A stretch of 42,935 bases of DNA from positions 1 through 42,935 of the forward strand of contig CAJOLR010000010.1 of assembly GCA_905235565.1 (NCBI GenBank), read 5' to 3'. The notes under the pieces were generated by a model. It did no database searches. It was not told where the DNA came from and saw only the letters and a list, made by a program, of their open reading frames with translations. Shown one piece after another: positions 674 through 8,097 of this stretch (positions are counted from its first letter, which is position 1; each line of letters opens with the position of its first letter). Source of the stretch: an uncultured Bacteroidaceae bacterium. Its GTDB lineage: Bacteria; Bacteroidota; Bacteroidia; Bacteroidales; Bacteroidaceae. The position numbers and the translations under genes were made by a program.

Positions 674-1339
674 TTAGACCTTAAGTTCTTTAAGAGAGGT
701 TATTGTTTGATCAGATTTATAGGTCATGCTCAACAATTCTTTATTATTCAACCATGCCGTCTGACATCCAATGGAGGCGGCGGGAAGGATGTCTTTTTCC
801 AGGCTGTCACCTATCATGAGGGTTTCTGATGGTTCAAATCCGAGAGCCTTTACCCCCAGACGGAATATCTCCGGATCTGGTTTTCGGACTCCTACAACGG
901 CCGATTCTATTACGTCTTTGAAGAGGTGACTCAGGCCGAACTCATGCAGGACGGTGTGCATATTGCCGTAGAAGTTGGTTACCAACACCATTGGAAGTTG
1001 TATCCTTTCCAGAACGGGTTTGGATACGGTAGATATATGCTTTACCACCTTGTTGTAGCAGGTGTCAAGGATGGTGTCCTGGGCGGTTAAGGTTACACCA
1101 TTGGACTGCAGATACTCGGTCTGCAAAGCTATCTTGGTCTGCAGGGTCTTGCAGAATGTATAGTCGGGTCCTATGATGGGGTTGCGGCCTAAGGTGCGCT
1201 CGGTATGAACGTAGGCATCCCAAAAAAGCGACTCGGGGACATCGGCCACAAGGGCGTAGGCATCACGGAATTGGTCAAACCAGTGGATGCCGTCGGAGTC
1301 TATGGTTCCGCCAAAATCTATGAGTATTCCCTTAATCAT
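674..1339 (-). CDS. HAD-superfamily hydrolase, last gene of the lipid-type cluster
   Basis: A 221-residue HAD hydrolase. Motif I is DFGGTIDS with nucleophile Asp8, motif II Thr121-Asn122, motif III Lys153 in RKPDPEIF and motif IV Asp178 and Asp183 in GDSLEKDI. The residue two after the nucleophile, usually the acid/base Asp of DxD phosphatases, is Gly10. The same replacement occurs in active HAD phosphatases such as YihX, so activity is not excluded. Its start overlaps the end of the flippase-like gene by 8 bp, so it is translated as part of that operon. By position it may dephosphorylate a phosphorylated head group or precursor (inference). A general sugar-phosphate or nucleotide phosphatase is the alternative. 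Confidence 0.85.
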   Translation of the reverse strand: MIKGILIDFGGTIDSDGIHWFDQFRDAYALVADVPESLFWDAYVHTERTLGRNPIIGPDYTFCKTLQTKIALQTEYLQSNGVTLTAQDTILDTCYNKVVKHISTVSKPVLERIQLPMVLVTNFYGNMHTVLHEFGLSHLFKDVIESAVVGVRKPDPEIFRLGVKALGFEPSETLMIGDSLEKDILPAASIGCQTAWLNNKELLSMTYKSDQTITSLKELKV

Positions 1340-2363
1340 TCCGTTTGCACACCTTAATTAAGATTACACCTATCACAGTCCAGACCACCTGGCGCAGGCG
1401 GGCCACCAATGCTGTATAGAGTCCGTATGCACCGGGCACCTGGACACCTCCGGCAGCAAGGGCCATACCGCCCTCAAAACCTCCCATCTGCATGGGCGAG
1501 AAGAATATAAGGTTGCTGAACAGTGATGAGAATGCCATTACCAGTATGCTGTCCCAGAACGTGAATCCGGGCATGAGCATTCCTATAAGGAGCCAATACT
1601 CCAGGCACGATACCACGCGGGCGGCATACTCCAGAAACAGCGACCACCAGAACGGTGCTCGGCGCCGGGTATGAAGGAACGCTATCTGGCTGTCCACATC
1701 CTCCAGATCGGCACGGTGTTTATTCAAATATCCTGCAGCCCATTTCTTTACAAAAGGAATGTGGCTTAAAAGAGCAAATACCTTGACCACGAAACCCTTG
1801 CGGTAACCCAGAGAGAATATCCACAGCACTGCCACAAAAATAACCGTCATCACACCCAGAATAATGCATATCCACAGATTCAGCGCATAACCATCGGCTG
1901 TAAAATGCAGCACCACATAGAGTGCCACTGCCGACAGCCAGAAACAGAAATGGGAACAGATGTGCATCATGGAGTACAGGATTACGGCCGATGTGGCTTT
2001 CCTGCCGCCCACATATCCCTGGAGTTCAAGTATTCGGTAAGGCTCGCCACCCATAAGTCCAAGAGGAGTGACATAGTTTAGGGCATACCCTGAAACAGTC
2101 AGCTGGAACACCTTACCAGGCGGCACTCTCCTACCCGTTCCGTCATTTATTATCAGTCCGAACGAGCAGGCGTTCATCAGGTAGATGAATCCCCAGAGCA
2201 CGACAATTACCGGAAACCATATCCCTGCCTCAGCCAGGACTTCCTTGACGCGGGTCCAGTCTGCATCGAACGTGAGCAGCATCAGTACTACTGCCGCCAG
2301 TCCTAACAGGAAGAATATGGTACGCCAGTGCCTCTTCATATATTGGCTGTCATTTCCCGGCAC
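1332..2363 (-). CDS. Flippase-like integral membrane protein (LPG synthase TM-region family)
   Basis: A 343-residue polytopic protein with about eight hydrophobic segments, the first near residues 12-30 (FFLLGLAAVVLMLL). It belongs to the PF03706/UPF0104 family, the membrane part of lysylphosphatidylglycerol synthase, where this region moves lipid across the inner membrane; no aminoacyl-transferase domain is present. Typical features are the central YALNYVTPLGLMGGEPYR stretch and a late MQMGGFEGG loop. It overlaps the CDP-alcohol phosphotransferase by 28 bp and the HAD gene by 8 bp, which ties it to both. The family is often annotated as a flippase-like domain, and I infer that it handles the product of the upstream transferase. 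Substrate unknown. Confidence 0.8.
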   Translation of the reverse strand: MPGNDSQYMKRHWRTIFFLLGLAAVVLMLLTFDADWTRVKEVLAEAGIWFPVIVVLWGFIYLMNACSFGLIINDGTGRRVPPGKVFQLTVSGYALNYVTPLGLMGGEPYRILELQGYVGGRKATSAVILYSMMHICSHFCFWLSAVALYVVLHFTADGYALNLWICIILGVMTVIFVAVLWIFSLGYRKGFVVKVFALLSHIPFVKKWAAGYLNKHRADLEDVDSQIAFLHTRRRAPFWWSLFLEYAARVVSCLEYWLLIGMLMPGFTFWDSILVMAFSSLFSNLIFFSPMQMGGFEGGMALAAGGVQVPGAYGLYTALVARLRQVVWTVIGVILIKVCKRND

Positions 2364-3262
2364 ACCCTTTCATGTGATGCTCTCATTCCAAAGAATATCA
2401 CGTTCATCACTGTCAGCTCAAATACGAAGTATATCCATGGCTGACCGATAAGCAATGATATGTAGAGGGCTATGGCCCGGGTATTGAAAGTTGATATGTT
2501 GGTCCATTTAAGCAGATGATATGTGCGGCGGCAGAACTCTGCCCCAAGCTCATGCGGAATCCTGCCGGCGTACTTGACGCGAACAGCGTTGCGGAATTTC
2601 TGGAAGCATGGCGTCATTCGCTCCTGGCTGCGTGTATAGTTCTGATAGAAGAAGAGCCAAATCTTCCAGAACCAGCGCTCACGCCATTGAGTAGAAGACT
2701 GTTGGGCAGCCAGTTCCCGGCTGTCATTAAGTTCAGAACTATCACCATGGAACAACAGGTAGATGTTCCTGTAATAATCGGCCAGACTGGCCTGACGTGT
2801 ATGGAAAACCAGACCGGATGTGGCCTCCAGTATCCATATCCAGATGCCCCATATACGTCCGCCGCCAAACGGCATGGGCTCAAAGGTGAGCCTTAAACCT
2901 ATGAAAACATAGATGAATATGAACCACAGATCACCGGCAAAACCGTCAAGCAGGCGCCCCCACATAGTCTTCTTGCCTGTCATGCGCGCCAGCTGACCGT
3001 CGGCACTGTCCAAAAAGTTTGCCAGCATGAGCATGAGTATGCCCAGAACAGTCCACTCCATTGTGGTGTGCCACCAGCAGAACCCTGCAAACACACCGAG
3101 GAATATGGAAATGACAGTAACTACATTGGGATGCACACCCAGCATTTCAAAGAATCGGGCTATGATATACCCGATGGGTCTTGTGAACCATATGTCCAGC
3201 CACTCCTCGGTATCCTTTGACTTGAATGTGGACTCAACAGTTCTTGTTTTCTTTCCTGTCAT
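2336..3262 (-). CDS. CDP-alcohol phosphatidyltransferase-family protein with shifted fourth Asp
   Basis: A 308-residue membrane enzyme of the CDP-alcohol phosphotransferase family, which joins a CDP-activated group to an alcohol to make phospholipid heads or phosphodiesters. The signature is present: Asp85, Asp88-Gly89, Ala92-Arg93, eight residues, Gly102, Asp106. The fourth Asp, expected at 110, is Gly, and an Asp stands at 111 (DGFAGD). It has several hydrophobic stretches before and after the motif and is longer than the roughly 200-residue minimal enzymes. It starts within the ATP-grasp stop region (4-bp overlap) and overlaps the flippase-like gene. A nucleotidyltransferase two genes upstream could make its CDP-substrate, as in the archaeal inositol-phosphate cytidylyltransferase/DIPP synthase pair. 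The head group is unknown. Confidence 0.85.
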   Translation of the reverse strand: MTGKKTRTVESTFKSKDTEEWLDIWFTRPIGYIIARFFEMLGVHPNVVTVISIFLGVFAGFCWWHTTMEWTVLGILMLMLANFLDSADGQLARMTGKKTMWGRLLDGFAGDLWFIFIYVFIGLRLTFEPMPFGGGRIWGIWIWILEATSGLVFHTRQASLADYYRNIYLLFHGDSSELNDSRELAAQQSSTQWRERWFWKIWLFFYQNYTRSQERMTPCFQKFRNAVRVKYAGRIPHELGAEFCRRTYHLLKWTNISTFNTRAIALYISLLIGQPWIYFVFELTVMNVIFFGMRASHERVCREMTANI

Positions 3263-4074
3263 CTCTTATCCATTATCAACCTGGCAATCTTCTGCGCCGC
3301 ACCTACCGTGCAGGTTCGGAAACTTGGCCAGTCATTGAAATCTATTATAGTAATCTTCCCGTCATCACCCACTACGGCATCGCCGCCATATACATCGACA
3401 CCCAGTATGTCCGATGCCCGCCCGGCAACGGCAGTCAAAGCATCCATATCGACACGGCCTGATTCCGGTTGGTCATTAAAACGCTCCAGACCGAACTTGC
3501 CATCCCGAGCCGATGCGGCATAACAGTCAGTAAGGCCGAAACCCCTGACGCCGTAAAACTTTATCAGCCATCCCTTAACGTGAGCCTGGATTACACACTC
3601 ACGGAAGCCGCGCTCTGAAAGACTGCGCATAGCAGCGTCCAGATTGTCGGCATCCTGAATATACTGCACATCATCCTTATCCACAGCATGGCTGTCAGCA
3701 CGTTTTATCCAACAGGGGTATTTATTCCATCCTTGTGGAATACCGTCAGTGCTGCAAATAATGCTGTCGGGAATTAGTCCTGTGCCGTTCAACAGTGCGG
3801 TTTGCGATGCACGGCCGCAATTCCTTACAGCCTGTACGGCGTTGGTTACCGGAACTGACGCCTGCTCCAGGATGGACAACGCCTCATGGCTACGGGCCAT
3901 CTGGAATATGCCGTCTATGCCATCGGGAATGGATTCAAGTTCCTGCTCACTGACACAGATAACCTCATGACCTGAACGGTCCAGTTCTGAGGCTACTCCA
4001 CGGAATACGGCGGCATCGCCCGCGGTACGGTTAGGCGAATACAACTCGGCACGGCTTACTCCAAGGTATCTCAT
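3259..4074 (-). CDS. ATP-grasp family protein
   Basis: A 271-residue soluble protein with the layout of an ATP-grasp enzyme. ATP-contacting Lys124 lies in CWIKRAD, the adenine-side segment in VIQAHVKG (161-168), Lys172 follows, and the metal-binding strand carries Asp232, Asp245 and Asn247 (IIDFNDWPSF). ATP-grasp proteins are mostly carboxylate-amine ligases through an acyl phosphate, but some are kinases, including inositol phosphate kinases of the ITPK type. It overlaps the nucleotidyltransferase upstream and the CDP-alcohol transferase downstream by 4 bp each, so it belongs to the same pathway. It could attach an amino acid to a head group or phosphorylate a polyol (inference); the sequence alone does not decide. 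Confidence 0.75.
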   Translation of the reverse strand: MRYLGVSRAELYSPNRTAGDAAVFRGVASELDRSGHEVICVSEQELESIPDGIDGIFQMARSHEALSILEQASVPVTNAVQAVRNCGRASQTALLNGTGLIPDSIICSTDGIPQGWNKYPCWIKRADSHAVDKDDVQYIQDADNLDAAMRSLSERGFRECVIQAHVKGWLIKFYGVRGFGLTDCYAASARDGKFGLERFNDQPESGRVDMDALTAVAGRASDILGVDVYGGDAVVGDDGKITIIDFNDWPSFRTCTVGAAQKIARLIMDKR

Positions 4075-4751
4075 AGTTTTGCTATCTCCTGTGCGCGGGC
4101 AACATCACTCACATGGTCCACATCGACCACCGGTCCCATATCGAATGCCTTCAACATCATTCCTGCCTCCAGGAGCCGGCGCTGGAAATAGCGCATCCTG
4201 GTCTGTCCGCTGCCAACACACTTACCAAGGACCTCCAGTGCAGGTGCCTTTAGGGCATATATTCCGGCAGAAACATATCGGAGACCATCCTGCATATCAT
4301 GGAAACCACAGATCATCATATCGGAATCAACATCCACGTAAAGTGGTTTCTCATCATCAATCAGTGATGTAACACCCATAAGACCGTCAAACGGGGTCTT
4401 TGAAAACTCATCCATCATCAATCTGAAACGGTTCTCGGAGAAGACGGTATCAACTGTGGTAACGCAGAACCGGTCACCCTCCAGATAGGGAGCAAGTTCC
4501 ATAAGGCTATGCATGGGTGTGGGTGTTTTCTTAACCACCAGGTCAACCGGCAATCCCTTAAGCAGACTGACAGTTTCCGGATTCTCTCCGTTTACTATAA
4601 CGGCTATACCATCGGCACCGCATCCCTTCATAATGCCCACCAGACGTATAATCATGGGTATGCCGTTTATTGGCACCAACGGTTTAGGCTGACTGAATCC
4701 TTCGGATGCCAGACGACTGCCTTCACCTGCAGATATGATGCCGAATCGCAT
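4071..4751 (-). CDS. Sugar/polyol-phosphate nucleotidyltransferase
   Basis: A 226-residue single-domain nucleotidyltransferase. The N-terminus has the pyrophosphorylase signature AGEGSRL followed by QPKPLVPING, and the metal-binding Asp probably lies in TTVDTVF. It lacks the left-handed beta-helix of GlmU and the C-terminal domain of glucose-1-phosphate enzymes, so the substrate is not read from architecture. It is the first of five overlapping genes that include a CDP-alcohol phosphotransferase. I therefore infer a CTP-dependent enzyme making a CDP-polyol, comparable to inositol-1-phosphate cytidylyltransferase. It begins 18 bp after the pdxA stop and probably shares the rlmN-pdxA transcript. 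A UTP- or GTP-using sugar enzyme is the alternative. Confidence 0.8.
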   Translation of the reverse strand: MRFGIISAGEGSRLASEGFSQPKPLVPINGIPMIIRLVGIMKGCGADGIAVIVNGENPETVSLLKGLPVDLVVKKTPTPMHSLMELAPYLEGDRFCVTTVDTVFSENRFRLMMDEFSKTPFDGLMGVTSLIDDEKPLYVDVDSDMMICGFHDMQDGLRYVSAGIYALKAPALEVLGKCVGSGQTRMRYFQRRLLEAGMMLKAFDMGPVVDVDHVSDVARAQEIAKL

Positions 4752-4769: not shown

Positions 4770-5861
4770 TTACTCCTTGTCAGGATTGAGATGCTTCAGC
4801 TTGTCGCTGTCATCGCGTCGGTCAAAGTAGAGTTTGCCCAGCGGATTGGCATGAATCGCCTTCTCTGTCTGACGTGAGCGGTATATGTCTATTGCCGTGA
4901 ATATAGCCTCGCGCATGGATGCCTCGCTTGCCACTCCCTGGCCAGCTATGTCATAAGCGGTTCCATGATCGGGCGATGTACGTACAACAGGCAGGCCTGC
5001 CGTATAGTTCACGCCGCACTCCATGTCAAGAGCCTTGAGTGGAATAAGTCCCTGGTCATGATACATGGCCAATACAGCATCAAACTTACGGTACTCGCCG
5101 CTGCCAAAAAATCCGTCAGCCGGGAAGGGGCCGAAACACTGAATCTTGTCGGCCACAACCTCATCGATGGCGGGCTTGATTATTTCATTCTCCTCCTTGC
5201 CTATAAGTCCGTCATCGCTGGCATGCGGATTGAGCGCAAGTACTGCTATACGGGGTATCTCTATCCCGAAATCCTGTTTCAGGGATTTATGGAGGATTCT
5301 GAGTTTCTCCTTGATAAGGTCCCTGGACAGAAGCGATGCCACCTTGGATATAGGCTCGTGAACAGTGGCCAGAGCAACTCTCATGGAGCTGTTCATAAGA
5401 ATCATAAGAGCCTTATTGCCATCTCCCAACTTTGCCTCGATATATTCGGTGTGACCGGGGAAATTGAATGAGTCAGAGTGAATGGTCTTCTTGTTTATAG
5501 GTGCGGTAACCAGCACATCAATCTTACCCTCGCGGTACTCCTTTACGGCACGTTCCAGAGCCAGGAATGCAGCATGTCCACTCTCCTCGGTTGGGAGTCC
5601 GAAATCCACCTTGACATCCTCCTTGTTGCAGTTTACCACATTCAGGCGGTCCTGCTGTGCATCGGACGCGCTGTCTACCACATTGAAATTAGTGGGGGAA
5701 TCTATCGCCTTGCGATGGTATGTCATAACCTTGGGGGAGCCATACACCACAGGTGTGCAGAACTCAAACATGGTGGGATCCTCAAAAGTCTTGAGGATAA
5801 CCTCATATCCTATTCCGTTCACATCACCCTGGGTGATGCCTACAACTATCCTTTCACTCAT
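4770..5861 (-). CDS. pdxA: 4-hydroxythreonine-4-phosphate dehydrogenase
   Basis: A 363-residue PdxA that oxidises 4-phosphohydroxythreonine in the DXP-dependent route to pyridoxal phosphate; the family is cytosolic, dimeric and metal-dependent. It starts with the typical GITQGDVNGIGYE, and the three metal-binding His are seen as His168 (VHEP), His213 (NPHASDDG) and His268 (MYHDQG). FPGHTEY around His137 and SPDHGTAYDIAG near residue 299 are also family hallmarks. It is slightly longer than the 330-residue E. coli enzyme, with a charged C-terminal tail. It lies 15 bp after the DUF4837 gene and 18 bp before the nucleotidyltransferase, inside the rlmN-led unit. No pdxJ is present in the window. 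Confidence 0.95.
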   Translation of the reverse strand: MSERIVVGITQGDVNGIGYEVILKTFEDPTMFEFCTPVVYGSPKVMTYHRKAIDSPTNFNVVDSASDAQQDRLNVVNCNKEDVKVDFGLPTEESGHAAFLALERAVKEYREGKIDVLVTAPINKKTIHSDSFNFPGHTEYIEAKLGDGNKALMILMNSSMRVALATVHEPISKVASLLSRDLIKEKLRILHKSLKQDFGIEIPRIAVLALNPHASDDGLIGKEENEIIKPAIDEVVADKIQCFGPFPADGFFGSGEYRKFDAVLAMYHDQGLIPLKALDMECGVNYTAGLPVVRTSPDHGTAYDIAGQGVASEASMREAIFTAIDIYRSRQTEKAIHANPLGKLYFDRRDDSDKLKHLNPDKE

Positions 5862-5876
5862 ATCTTTTCTTTCAAA

Positions 5877-7061
5877 TTAGTCTTCGGGGGTTATTAATAT
5901 CTCTTCCAGATTATAATTGAATTTCTCCAGATCCAGTTCATCCGGCAGGCGCAGTGTATAGAGTGCCGCCTCCAGTTTCTTGAGAATGTTACGCTTTGGC
6001 TGGTTGGGGTAATAGACAAAGGCCTCGGCCACAACAACACGCTGGTTCTTTTCGTCAACACGTGAAACCGATACGAACGGACCTCCCATATCGTAACCCT
6101 TGATATTCCAGAGTCCGCGTACTACCTGGGCATACTGGCCATGAACCGTCTCGTCCGATATCAGATTGAAACCTTTTGTAGTCATCATGTATTGTCCCTC
6201 TTTAGGTCCGGGGACATTGGCCTTCATGACCGAGTCACGCTTATGGACAAAGTATGCCTCGGTAAAGGTGTTTACGTGACGGTACGGGTAAGAATAGACT
6301 ACAATGTTCAGGTTCTGTTCAACGTTTCTGGGGAATCTGTCCTGACTGGCAGCCCATACAAAATTCCTGCCGGTCTTGGTCCTGGTCAACTCCGTCGGAG
6401 CCCACATATCACATCCGAAAGTCTTCTTCACGGCCTCACGTATATGCGGCTGGTGGTCATTCCTGAGCAGATCTATCTGGCGGTTCAGTTCAGCCCTGGT
6501 AAAGAATTCTATGATGGCATCGTGATTCTCAACCACAAAGTCCTTGAACTTGAGCGCATTGGGTGCCTGAATGGTCATCACTATCTGAGGGGCTGCATAC
6601 ACATCCCTTGAGAACTTGAACTTGCAACTGGAATAAGTGGCAGGATCAATCTTGATGATCACTATGTTACGGCACAGGCGCAATGTCTTGGAGAGGTTGT
6701 TCTTGGTTATTTTGGAAACCTTGAAACAAGGCTCAGACTGCGCTACACCGGCCAGATCGTCGGTAAGGACAGCATAGAGGGAGTCAACCGCGCCATTATG
6801 GAAATCATCCTCGTCTGCAACCAGAAGGATCTCATATGGGGAGCCGGCAGATGTTGGAGTAAGGATGGATTTCTTTTTACCGCGGCCAACCCTGACATCA
6901 CCTTTTTGGGATTTCTTGGCGTTACCTGACTTAACCGGAACCTTTGCTTCGGTCTGGGCCCCATCGGCCTTTGACTGTTCTCCTTTACGGGAATTGCCGC
7001 ATGCAACGGTTACCATTACCGCCAGCAACGCCATGCAAACTTTATAGAAAAACTGTTTCAT
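5877..7061 (-). CDS. DUF4837 family lipoprotein
   Basis: A 394-residue predicted lipoprotein: Lys/Phe-rich start, hydrophobic core and lipobox VTVAC-G near residue 21. A low-complexity, Lys/Ser-rich linker runs to about residue 65, followed by a globular part beginning ILTPTSAGSPYEILLVAD. This matches the Bacteroidota family DUF4837, whose function is not established. In Bacteroidales it is commonly found between rlmN and pdxA, as here (4 bp after rlmN, 15 bp before pdxA), which supports the family call. The long charged linker after the lipid-anchored Cys suggests a domain held away from the membrane. No catalytic motif is recognisable. Confidence 0.85.
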   Translation of the reverse strand: MKQFFYKVCMALLAVMVTVACGNSRKGEQSKADGAQTEAKVPVKSGNAKKSQKGDVRVGRGKKKSILTPTSAGSPYEILLVADEDDFHNGAVDSLYAVLTDDLAGVAQSEPCFKVSKITKNNLSKTLRLCRNIVIIKIDPATYSSCKFKFSRDVYAAPQIVMTIQAPNALKFKDFVVENHDAIIEFFTRAELNRQIDLLRNDHQPHIREAVKKTFGCDMWAPTELTRTKTGRNFVWAASQDRFPRNVEQNLNIVVYSYPYRHVNTFTEAYFVHKRDSVMKANVPGPKEGQYMMTTKGFNLISDETVHGQYAQVVRGLWNIKGYDMGGPFVSVSRVDEKNQRVVVAEAFVYYPNQPKRNILKKLEAALYTLRLPDELDLEKFNYNLEEILITPED

Positions 7062-7065
7062 GATC

Positions 7066-8097
7066 TTATGGTTTTAATGATTCTTCATTTGCAGTACTCA
7101 ACATTCCGCAGGCAGCCCATATATCCTCGCCACGCGATGCGCGGATTGTGGCAAACACGCCGTGAGTGGTAAGCCAGTCGCGGAACTCCGTCATTTTCTG
7201 TTCCGATACCGGACGCAGCGGACTGTCGGGGATGGCATGGAAACGTATCAGGTTAACCCTGCAACTCAGTCCGCTGAGCGTTTTGACCAGCTGACGGGCA
7301 TCGTCCATAGAGTCATTCACACCGTCAAACATGGTGTACTCGAATGACAGACGGCGCTGATGGCTGAAATCATACCGGCGCAGCACCTCCAGCATCTCGG
7401 TCATGGAGAATGCCTTCTCGGCCGGAATAAGTTCACGGCGCTTATCCGGTGTGGGAGCATGCAGGCTCACTGCGATATGACAGTCACAGCCCTCAATAAG
7501 CTGTTTAAGCTCGCGGCGCAGGCCTACTGTCGATATGGTGATGCGTTTGGGACTCCAGCCGAATCCCCACGCAGATGTGAGTATCTCCTGGACGGCCAGT
7601 ACATTCTCCAGATTATCTAAAGGCTCACCCATACCCATAAACACCACATTGGTCAGGTTCTCCTTACCCGGCAGAGAAAGTATCTGGTTAAGTATCTCAC
7701 CTGCTGTAAGACTGGCGGTATAGTGCTGGCGGCCTGTCATGCAGAACACGCAGCCCATCTTGCAGCCTACCTGACTGGATATGCAGAGCGTGGCGCGGTC
7801 ATCATCAGGAATATAGACCGCCTCAACATAGTGGCCGTTCTGAACGGGAAACAGGTATTTGACCGTACCGTCGGCCGATGCTGCCTTGTGCGAAGGCTCA
7901 GCCAGACCTACCTCATAGTTCTCTGCCAGCTTGGCCCTGTGCTTAAGAGATATATTGGTCATGCCGTCAATGGAGCGGACCTGCTTTACGTAGAGCCAAT
8001 CGGCCATCTGCCTGGCTGTAAACAGGGGCATACCGTTCTCCACAGCCACCTGCTGCAGCTGTGCCAATGTCATTCCAACCAGATTCTTCAGAGCCAT
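7066..8097 (-). CDS. rlmN: Dual-specificity rRNA/tRNA adenine-C2 methyltransferase RlmN
   Basis: A 343-residue radical-SAM methyltransferase that methylates C2 of A2503 in 23S rRNA and of A37 in some tRNAs. The 4Fe-4S cluster motif is Cys112, Cys116 and Cys119 (GCKMGCVFCMTG). The Cys that forms the protein-RNA adduct is Cys330 in IWAACGML. VVFMGMGEPLDN and ISTVGL further identify the family. It is the first gene of a minus-strand unit reaching to 674; a good -7 box lies about 60 bp upstream. Length and motifs are complete, so an active enzyme is expected. Cfr is very similar, but the core-gene neighbours argue for RlmN. Confidence 0.95.
   Translation of the reverse strand: MALKNLVGMTLAQLQQVAVENGMPLFTARQMADWLYVKQVRSIDGMTNISLKHRAKLAENYEVGLAEPSHKAASADGTVKYLFPVQNGHYVEAVYIPDDDRATLCISSQVGCKMGCVFCMTGRQHYTASLTAGEILNQILSLPGKENLTNVVFMGMGEPLDNLENVLAVQEILTSAWGFGWSPKRITISTVGLRRELKQLIEGCDCHIAVSLHAPTPDKRRELIPAEKAFSMTEMLEVLRRYDFSHQRRLSFEYTMFDGVNDSMDDARQLVKTLSGLSCRVNLIRFHAIPDSPLRPVSEQKMTEFRDWLTTHGVFATIRASRGEDIWAACGMLSTANEESLKP

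Follow-up and report, generated by a model that had tools for sequence, protein, structure and literature searches.

The five overlapping genes found in the window, the whole 42,935-nucleotide stretch of DNA analysed here, are probably a copy of the "alternative" inositol-lipid cluster of the Bacteroides vulgatus/Prevotella type, complemented by a myo-inositol-phosphate synthase (MIPS) gene at another place in the genome, and would follow the route proposed below. The identity of the cluster and its link with inositol are highly probable, and the products are most likely inositol lipids made via CDP-inositol. Heaver et al. (2022) described in B. vulgatus a putative cluster of this type, composed of genes for a nucleotidyltransferase (NTP), a CDP-alcohol phosphotransferase (CDPAP) and a HAD-family hydrolase, for phosphatidylinositol (PI) or PI-dihydroceramide (PI-DHC); its pathway is itself only predicted, and the main text also notes an LPG-synthase-like neighbour (PMC9246714). 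The presence of MIPS in the genome, the co-occurrence of MIPS with the cluster in other genomes and the identical gene order of the published B. vulgatus cluster argue against the original prediction of an unassigned head group in a possibly new Bacteroidales lipid. Of the five genes, three (NTP, CDPAP and HAD) match a pathway that has been described, albeit as a prediction. What seems new is that an ATP-grasp enzyme (GRASP) is tied to the cluster and to inositol genes, that it is fused to NTP or to HAD in some genomes, that the two known inositol-lipid gene sets are interleaved in some loci, and that CDPAP belongs to a shifted subfamily.

In gut Bacteroidota, inositol lipids have effects on the capsule, on resistance to antimicrobial peptides and on fitness in mice, according to the abstract of PMC9246714. 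The chemistry of the commoner, GRASP-type set is only predicted, and the published prediction omits GRASP, which is present in 158 genomes, all with CDPAP. The pathway becomes directly testable by deletions and enzyme assays thanks to GRASP, the gene fusions, the displaced CDPAP signature and the loci where both sets interleave.

Layout of the gene run and its neighbours

All five genes lie on the minus strand. The gene for NTP, a MobA-like nucleotidyltransferase (4071..4751; PF12804, 3.6e-12), is followed by those for GRASP (3259..4074), recognized by profile search and a confident structure model, CDPAP (2336..3262; PF01066, 5.2e-12), a flippase-like membrane protein of the LPG_synthase_TM type (1332..2363; PF03706, 6.7e-21, 75.5 bits against a gathering score of 33.4) and the HAD-family hydrolase (674..1339; PF00702, 1.2e-17). 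From NTP to HAD, successive open reading frames overlap by 4, 4, 28 and 8 bp. The 28-bp overlap arises from the first GTG of the membrane protein; starting instead at an in-frame ATG (2339) reduces it to an ordinary 4 bp, the first start codon of the L034 orthologue is at the matching place, and this ATG is likely the true start. The open reading frames were confirmed as originally described. Twelve of the 39 loci compared carry all five genes side by side in this order, beyond what chance would give, which supports the claim that they form one conserved unit. As the window starts at base 1 of its contig, only 673 bases are visible beyond the HAD gene.

Upstream, on the same strand, are the genes for PdxA of the vitamin B6 route (4770..5861; TIGR00557, 373.5 bits, above cut-off), separated from NTP by 18 bp, for a DUF4837 protein (5877..7061; PF16125, 5.7e-94) whose N terminus looks lipoprotein-like to us, and for RlmN (7066..8097; TIGR00048, 347.5 bits, above cut-off). 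PdxA is also a neighbour of the cluster in same-genus loci and in L073, and DUF4837 and RlmN occupy the equivalent position in L034-L048 and L073. We regard PdxA as operon context and keep it outside the lipid pathway assignment. The LPG_synthase_TM gene also adjoins the gene sets of the B. thetaiotaomicron type (L088, L089) and sister clusters (L090, L091, L092, L094), and no such gene was seen between CDPAP and HAD in L029, L077, L078, L082, L085 and L086. On both counts, its product is not specific to this pathway.

Relation to known inositol-lipid clusters and co-occurrence with MIPS

Locus L073, which we take to be the chromosome of B. vulgatus ATCC 8482, has the same eight-gene order as the window, followed by MIPS 2.2 kb further on, and this order presumably fits the BVU_RS locus tags, if these step by five. 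The tags in the main text of the paper are BVU_RS13095 for NTP, 13105 for Ptrans and 13115 for HAD (PMC9246714). Identities between the window and L073 are 49% for NTP, 39% for GRASP, 57% for CDPAP, 50% for the LPG_synthase_TM protein and 41% for HAD. The window thus resembles the B. vulgatus cluster in having NTP, CDPAP and HAD in one locus, with the gene order and neighbours of L073, and there is a MIPS homologue in the genome. Unlike in L073, this MIPS is on a separate contig (C49), with none seen near the cluster, and the assembly has no serine palmitoyltransferase (SPT) above cut-off. The earlier statement that no inositol-phosphate synthase is seen therefore holds for the window but not for the genome, which rules out the argument from a missing MIPS to a non-inositol lipid. 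MIPS is present in 31 of the 37 genomes of the genus.

The B. thetaiotaomicron-type cluster (PIP synthase, PgpA-like PIP phosphatase, PI-DHC synthase and MIPS; L088, L089) shares with ours MIPS, an LPG-synthase-like neighbour and a PF01066 protein. It differs by the absence of NTP and GRASP in L088 and L089, by its own CDPAP, which retains a strict GxxxDxxxD, and by a PAP2-type PI-DHC synthase in the place of HAD. The genome of the window appears to be without this type of PIP synthase and PI-DHC synthase, in an assembly that is 90.9% complete: its only PF01066 matches are the CDPAP described here and PssA (TIGR00473 above cut-off, adjoining phosphatidylserine decarboxylase), and the PI-DHC synthase model NF052609 had no match in it, a result judged by the 49 of 249 genomes matched elsewhere because the search controls were silent too. 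The best SPT-family protein of the assembly (L102) is cut by a contig edge and matches the Sphingobacterium SPT less well than 7u7h and a cysteate acyltransferase (28eh); the remaining hits comprise a fragment and one match of 20 bits. Since SPT is above cut-off in 25 of the 37 genomes of the genus, an assembly gap is a possible explanation, the alternative being an organism without sphingolipids.

The suggested check of co-occurrence beyond this genome came out positive. GRASP (counted at E 0.001, weak members such as G087 and G145, near 1e-16, included) was found in 158 of 249 family genomes, and CDPAP (E 1e-30 or better) in every one of these; another 27 genomes have CDPAP without GRASP, making 185 CDPAP genomes altogether. 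MIPS is present in 138 of the 158 genomes with both genes versus 2 of the 27 with CDPAP only. The 180 MIPS genomes comprise 135 with GRASP only, 39 with PI-DHC synthase only, 3 with both and 3 with neither, with PI-DHC synthase counted at E 0.001 (49 genomes, 32 above the curated cut-off) and kinship among genomes ignored in all these statistics. The GRASP-type set is thus more than three times commoner than the characterized one. As to a nearby MIPS, the other suggested check, 47 of 111 comparable genomes have it no more than 15 kb from GRASP, with about one expected; 150 of the 158 GRASP genomes and 150 of the 180 MIPS genomes entered this test, 111 of them in both groups, and contig breaks can hide adjacency.

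No MIPS was found in 20 of the 158 GRASP genomes. The cluster is kept in the six that we inspected (L079-L082, L085, L086), suggesting that these organisms may take up the substrate from their surroundings or use a different one. In all seven inspected loci with CDPAP and without GRASP (L090-L096), CDPAP is paired with an IspD/ribitol-type cytidylyltransferase; L087 (G049), scanned along with the other loci, gave no match. Both inositol-lipid sets are interleaved in 8 of the 39 loci, which would not be predicted if the two pathways were interchangeable. We use "Muribaculaceae-type" as a working label for such loci, whose record titles include Muribaculaceae, Duncaniella, Porphyromonadaceae, Bacteroides sp., Bacteroidales and one "Staphylococcus sp."

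Features of the individual enzymes

In keeping with the description of the ATP-grasp step as unexplained, no paper that we recognized as naming or explaining an ATP-grasp enzyme in the cluster turned up among the matches listed, a search that reached neither closed-licence papers (e.g., Jorge 2015, on CDP-inositol lipids) nor supplements, and "ATP-grasp" has no occurrence in the main text of PMC9246714. GRASP had no Pfam match at 1e-3, and at loose E-values its 37 members gave scattered weak matches, with R2K_3 in 5 of 37 and ITPK (PF05770) in 1 of 37 (E 0.13), short of full-length similarity to ITPK. A profile search matched 7drm (4.6e-6), ArgX (3vpb; 6.9e-5) and ITPK4 (8.6e-4). The ATP-grasp fold together with a metal-binding Asp/Glu-x-Asn motif places GRASP in the ATP-grasp superfamily, and K172 and D245-F-N247-D-W-P are invariant across the 37 aligned sequences. 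In the structure model (pLDDT 90.8), the closest overall folds among the best 50 of 1557 Foldseek rows are ArgX/LysX (3vpb, TMq 0.75-0.76) and D-Ala-D-Ala ligases, with no ITPK among those 50. GRASP is nevertheless outside the RimK/LysX family as defined by TIGR00768 (19.5 bits against a cut-off of 143.4), and the RimK-family model matches its L073 counterpart at 5.2e-9, also under cut-off. The metal motif points elsewhere. The segment iDFNDWPSF aligns with VDLNYLPSF, VDVNVFPSY and IDINAFPGY of three ITPKs, giving a DxNxxPS[FY]-like motif, whereas two aligned ligases show LELN and NELN, i.e., Glu-x-Asn; the alignment to ITPKs is mostly confined to the last ~55 residues. Neither the scattered Pfam matches nor the whole-fold comparison was taken to decide between kinase and ligase; in the latter, the listed rows are ligases, yet ATP-grasp folds resemble each other. 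From its metal motif and gene context, we tentatively predict GRASP to be an inositol or inositol-phosphate kinase, a best guess at slightly less than even odds, given that the motif is ITPK-like but the whole fold is nearer to ligases. The enzyme also adjoins the PIP-synthase set in four genomes where CDPAP was not found, which we count in favor of a kinase. Fusions join it to NTP (L075/L097, from the same genome, L078, L098, L101) and to HAD (L068, L069, L071).

The family profile of NTP matches a CTP-inositol-1-phosphate cytidylyltransferase (2xme, 5.1e-8) and the archaeal IPCT-DIPPS fusion (4mnd, 4.2e-7). Better scores were obtained with sugar-1-phosphate nucleotidyltransferases (best 1.6e-11, a heptose-pathway protein) and with a phosphocholine cytidylyltransferase (9.4e-9). 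NTP is likely a CTP:inositol-phosphate cytidylyltransferase. The chain put forward originally, of CTP activation, transfer and dephosphorylation, agrees with some solved relatives (2xme, 4mnd, AF2299), with the reservation that several sugar-phosphate nucleotidyltransferases outscore them for NTP.

CDPAP matches NF040950 at 4.7e-14, under cut-off, and its model (pLDDT 87.0) shows an insertion of about 100 residues, polar and helical. The model and hydropathy suggest to us six membrane helices. The strict class I signature, DxxDGxxAR-x8-GxxxDxxxD, is not observed: its end is displaced (GRLLDGFAGD), so that the first seven of the eight residues are present in all rows while the last Asp, out of 34 distinct sequences, is displaced by one position towards the C terminus in 32 and lost in the other 2 (35 rows, L045 being counted twice with two start sites). 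CDPAP thus appears to represent a shifted subfamily that departs from the strict signature while retaining PF01066 and the six-helix core. The best Foldseek match, AF2299 (4o6m), is weak (TMq 0.52). CDPAP profile matches include AF2299 and 4mnd, and the NTP and CDPAP profiles between them match the two halves of 4mnd. The window therefore shares with the archaeal IPCT-DIPPS and AF2299 systems a cytidylyltransferase and a six-helix CDPAP, and differs from them by the separate genes, the insertion, the displaced catalytic-base position and the weak fold match. Six membrane helices are held to be typical of soluble acceptors, three or four more being found with lipid acceptors (PMC4634129), and the count seen here is thus an argument against a lipid as acceptor.

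In HAD, motif I is DxGGT, with DxG in place of DxD in all 21 aligned sequences. D8, G10, G11, T12, K153, D178 and D183 are invariant in the 21, and phosphatase activity would remain compatible with this sequence because the nucleophile Asp, K153, D178 and D183 are among them.

Candidate pathway and competing readings

In the route that we favor, MIPS would provide inositol-3-phosphate and GRASP would phosphorylate inositol or inositol phosphate immediately ahead of the NTP step, in which NTP would convert CTP and an inositol phosphate to CDP-inositol, the likely donor. The six-helix CDPAP would transfer phosphoinositol to a lipid acceptor, perhaps dihydroceramide directly, HAD would strip the extra phosphate at or after this step, and the flippase-like protein would move the lipid. 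By analogy, the kinase and HAD would follow the logic of the PIP-synthase/PIP-phosphatase pair of the B. thetaiotaomicron route. Direct transfer onto ceramide is supported by the report that ceramide-PI makes up 1% of the sphingolipids of B. vulgatus ATCC 8482, with no diacyl-PI detected (PMC10056535). Data on B. thetaiotaomicron homologues in the main text of Heaver et al. argue against skipping PI-DAG, and their thin-layer chromatography bands are consistent with PI-DAG too (PMC9246714), for which we lowered our estimate; direct transfer now stands a little below an even chance. The ligase-like fold of GRASP, the lack of a second Asp in motif I of HAD, the genomes devoid of a detected MIPS, the interleaved loci and the absence of an SPT above cut-off all count against the favored route.

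It is possible, though rather doubtful, that GRASP is instead a carboxylate ligase from which the inositol head group, or an intermediate, receives an amino acid or another acid; the cluster would then yield a decorated inositol lipid, either alongside plain PI-DHC or in its place. Its best profile matches (7drm, ArgX), its nearest folds and the RimK-family match in L073 fit such an activity, and the interleaving with the PI-DHC set suggests an extra product; against this, the motif Asp replaces the Glu of the two aligned ligases, and plain PI-DHC is made by B. vulgatus and Prevotella veroralis (main text of PMC9246714). The scheme of Heaver et al., in which CDPAP makes PI-DAG from CDP-inositol and diacylglycerol and HAD turns PI-DAG into PI-DHC, would leave GRASP as an accessory. 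CDPAP-HAD fusions, in the main text of PMC9246714 and here (L099, L100), are in line with it, as are the data on B. thetaiotaomicron homologues in that paper. It offers no role for GRASP, though CDPAP accompanies GRASP in 158 of 158 genomes. Moreover, HADs as a rule attack phosphomonoesters, and the enzyme here carries DxG. Together with the finding of ceramide-PI but no diacyl-PI in B. vulgatus (PMC10056535), these points make the scheme unlikely.

We consider two further readings very improbable. The cluster might make a soluble di-inositol-phosphate-like compound or polymer unit rather than a lipid, as in the archaeal IPCT-DIPPS route, where DIPP needs a phosphatase. The six-helix CDPAP is indeed closest to AF2299, which binds CDP-glycerol (PMC4634129), and also matches IPCT-DIPPS. 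However, the GRASP-type set and the PI-DHC synthase set nearly exclude each other, a flippase-like gene lies within the run, and inositol sphingolipids occur in species reported with the alternative cluster and without B. thetaiotaomicron-type homologues (main text of PMC9246714). A head group made of a polyol other than inositol would suit the 20 genomes in which MIPS was not found, and the related CDPAP of the sister cluster, with its IspD/ribitol-type partner in 7 of 7 loci, indicates that the family may serve other head groups, but the contrast in MIPS content between GRASP and CDPAP-only genomes and the adjacency of MIPS to GRASP argue for inositol.

The favored route can also be cast, with a low probability, as a third one to inositol sphingolipids, in which a GRASP kinase, CDP-inositol or CDP-inositol-phosphate, a displaced-base CDPAP acting directly on ceramide, bypassing PI-DAG, and an atypical HAD removing the surplus phosphate would operate together. 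The interleaved Muribaculaceae-type loci would then perhaps be ancestral, the Bacteroidaceae lineages each keeping one half.

Gene order, genomic context and the published cluster

The original prediction of five overlapping genes on the minus strand (674-4751) was borne out by ORF calls and family profiles, which assigned them to a MobA-like nucleotidyltransferase (NTP), an ATP-grasp-like protein, a CDP-alcohol phosphotransferase (CDPAP), an LPG_synthase_TM flippase-like membrane protein (LPG) and a HAD-family hydrolase. Neighbouring genes overlap by 4, 4, 28 and 8 bp, and the 28-bp overlap shrinks to 4 bp if the LPG protein begins at ATG 2339. Upstream on the same strand lie PdxA, DUF4837 and RlmN (4770-8097, minus strand), a trio also found ahead of the cluster in same-genus loci and in locus L073 of genome G229. 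Serine palmitoyltransferase (SPT) requires PLP, which raises a possible link between vitamin B6 synthesis and lipid genes.

The case for a new lipid had been built on a missing inositol-phosphate synthase and did not hold, as the window's genome encodes myo-inositol-phosphate synthase (MIPS) on another contig (G000:C49:8204-9457, 441 residues, PF07994 E 9.7e-96), where ArgR-like and aquaporin-like genes flank it. An alternative inositol-lipid cluster described for the gut commensal B. vulgatus comprises an NTP transferase, a CDP-alcohol phosphatidyltransferase and a HAD protein, with tags 13095, 13105 and 13115; MIPS is usually nearby, with exceptions including P. copri, and an LPG-synthase-like neighbour was remarked (Heaver et al. 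2022, PMC9246714). The term “ATP-grasp” has no occurrence in the main text of that paper. L073 has the order RlmN-DUF4837-PdxA-NTP-ATPgrasp-CDPAP-LPG-HAD, with MIPS 2.2 kb further. We take it to be the B. vulgatus locus of the published cluster. If, as we presume, locus tags step by five, one gene lies between each published pair, and at these two gaps L073 carries the ATP-grasp and LPG genes. Thus, by order and context, the window's cluster is the counterpart of this published, predicted-only cluster, MIPS being encoded on a separate contig. Within the reach of our literature search, four features are new: the ATP-grasp gene, the fusions it takes part in, the shift in the CDPAP signature and the interleaving of loci described below; we found no mention of ATP-grasp for the cluster in the open-licence PMC literature.

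Co-occurrence across the family

Among 249 family genomes of at least 90% completeness, 158 encode the ATP-grasp protein and 180 MIPS: 138 have both, 20 ATP-grasp alone, 42 MIPS alone and 49 neither (Fisher 6e-12, uncorrected for kinship). CDPAP was detected at E 1e-30 or better in 185 genomes, including all 158 with ATP-grasp. MIPS is present in 138 of these 158, versus 2 of the 27 that have CDPAP without ATP-grasp. The PI-dihydroceramide (PI-DHC) synthase model NF052609 matched 49 of the 249 genomes at E 0.001, 32 of them above its cut-off. Because the 180 MIPS genomes split into 135 with ATP-grasp only, 39 with PI-DHC synthase only, 3 with both and 3 with neither, the two sets largely substitute for each other in the family. 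Where both positions were tabulated (111 genomes), MIPS lies within 15 kb of ATP-grasp in 47, with about one expected; none was seen within that distance in the other 64, which is also the window's situation. In the genus, MIPS occurs in 31 of 37 genomes.

Interleaved loci, fusions and the ATP-grasp enzyme

In 8 of 39 loci (L051, L053, L054 of Duncaniella muris, L055, L057, L059, L060 and L072), the cluster is interleaved with B. thetaiotaomicron-type genes in the order NTP-ATPgrasp-PgpA-(BT1524)-PIP synthase-PI-DHC synthase-CDPAP-HAD, L072 being without a BT1524 match. Family membership was checked for L059 and, in L054, for its PIP synthase. Without its middle block, this order, which we call Muribaculaceae-type, is that of the window, the LPG gene excepted. 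L049 and L050 are also interleaved, with no NTP within the stretch examined; MIPS follows the interleaved set in these two and in L059 and L060. In L052, L058, L062 and L067, the ATP-grasp gene adjoins BT1524, PIP synthase and PI-DHC synthase matches, with no PgpA match in these loci and no CDPAP of the cluster's family in their genomes (E 1e-10). The ATP-grasp protein thus accompanies inositol-lipid genes of both kinds. Altogether, 6 of 18 genomes searched, of unstated completeness, gave no CDPAP match at E 1e-10; besides these four, they are the genomes of L063 and L066, whose ATP-grasp copies have neither inositol-lipid set in the stretch examined. L057, a Bacteroidales-type locus, lies on a 2.6-Mb contig labelled Staphylococcus sp., probably in error. 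L070, from a pasture record labelled Candidatus Binataceae bacterium and hence non-Bacteroidota by its label, has adjacent NTP and ATP-grasp relatives with a partial HAD upstream.

NTP and ATP-grasp share a single open frame in L075 and L097 (one genome), L078, L098 and L101, as do ATP-grasp and HAD in L068, L069 and L071, and CDPAP and HAD in L099 and L100; the last fusion is also reported for P. veroralis (PMC9246714). An LPG-HAD frame in L081 extends to the contig start. The fusions tie NTP, ATP-grasp, CDPAP and HAD to one pathway, and place ATP-grasp beside the activation step as well as beside the HAD protein, whose motif I reads D-x-G-G-T in 21 of 21 sequences.

The predicted ATP-grasp structure (pLDDT 90.8, pTM 0.87) is closest in whole fold to ArgX/LysX and D-Ala-D-Ala ligases, the top Foldseek matches, with no inositol-phosphate kinase (ITPK) among the best 50 of 1557. 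This resemblance would suit a ligase, which we rate as somewhat less probable than a kinase. Profile searches returned 7drm (4.6e-6), 3vpb (ArgX, 6.9e-5), ITPK4 (8.6e-4) and an Entamoeba ITPK (0.0033). Residues R8, D20, N78, K172 and W249 are invariant in the protein's family. In contrast to the whole fold, the metal motif is shared with ITPKs: in a small sample of five aligned structures, it is Asp-x-Asn in the three ITPKs, as in the window's protein, and Glu-x-Asn in the two ligases. To our knowledge, ligases in general carry Glu at the first position. We tentatively chose a kinase, which the motif suggests, at less than even odds, with a ligase next and the remainder undecided.

CDPAP, its product and a sister cluster

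NTP profiles matched CTP:inositol-1-phosphate cytidylyltransferase at 5.1e-8 and 4mnd, the IPCT-DIPPS fusion, at 4.2e-7, both outscored by several sugar nucleotidyltransferases and one phosphocholine cytidylyltransferase. CDPAP profiles matched AF2299 (4o6m, 1e-11) and 4mnd (4e-5), with vertebrate choline/ethanolamine phosphotransferases weaker (0.0057 and up). AF2299 was also the best Foldseek match (E 5.2e-4, TMq 0.52) to the predicted CDPAP structure (pLDDT 87.0).

None of 34 distinct CDPAP members has the strict GxxxDxxxD ending seen in four PIP synthases and in PssA: the last Asp comes one residue late in 32 and is missing in two (L082, L085). It aligns with D93 of mycobacterial PIP synthase, the proposed catalytic base (PMC4634129). 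In L082 and L085, whose genomes yielded no MIPS, the shifted Asp is replaced (ASQ, ASG), which may mean that the two proteins are altered or inactive.

HPLC-MS shows that PI-DHC is made by B. vulgatus and P. veroralis, and species without B. thetaiotaomicron homologues gave TLC bands fitting diacyl-PI (PI-DAG) as well as PI-DHC (PMC9246714). In B. vulgatus ATCC 8482, ceramide-PI is reported as 1% of sphingolipids, with diacyl-PI below detection (PMC10056535), so that the two papers pull apart on a PI-DAG stage. Our preference, held with considerable doubt, is that CDPAP moves phosphoinositol straight onto ceramide. From the model and hydropathy we read six membrane helices, together with a polar insertion around residues 156-256; transfer onto a lipid is disfavoured by this count, because six helices go with soluble acceptors, enzymes with lipid acceptors typically having three or four more (PMC4634129).

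SPT scored above cut-off in 25 of 37 genus genomes, a set that does not include the window's assembly, and many genus genomes carry lower-scoring SPT-family paralogues alongside SPT itself. An SPT-superfamily protein on contig C55 of the window's genome (L102:2-1078, minus strand) scored highest against 7u7h and the cysteate-C-fatty acyltransferase 28eh; the organism may, judging from sequence, make sulfonolipids.

A sister cluster was seen in 7 of 7 loci examined (L090-L096), which come from seven of the 27 genomes with CDPAP but without ATP-grasp. In it, a close relative of the CDPAP is paired with a cytidylyltransferase of the IspD/ribitol type, and the loci gave neither an ATP-grasp nor a HAD match. 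The D-ribitol-5-phosphate cytidylyltransferase model NF001183 scored above cut-off in L091 and L092, and the last CDPAP Asp again comes a residue later than in the strict form in 7 of 7. The product of this cluster may carry another polyol as head group. By our reading, PdxA/RlmN-like frames adjoin it in L090-L092 and L094, and in L090 it adjoins a B. thetaiotaomicron-type set.
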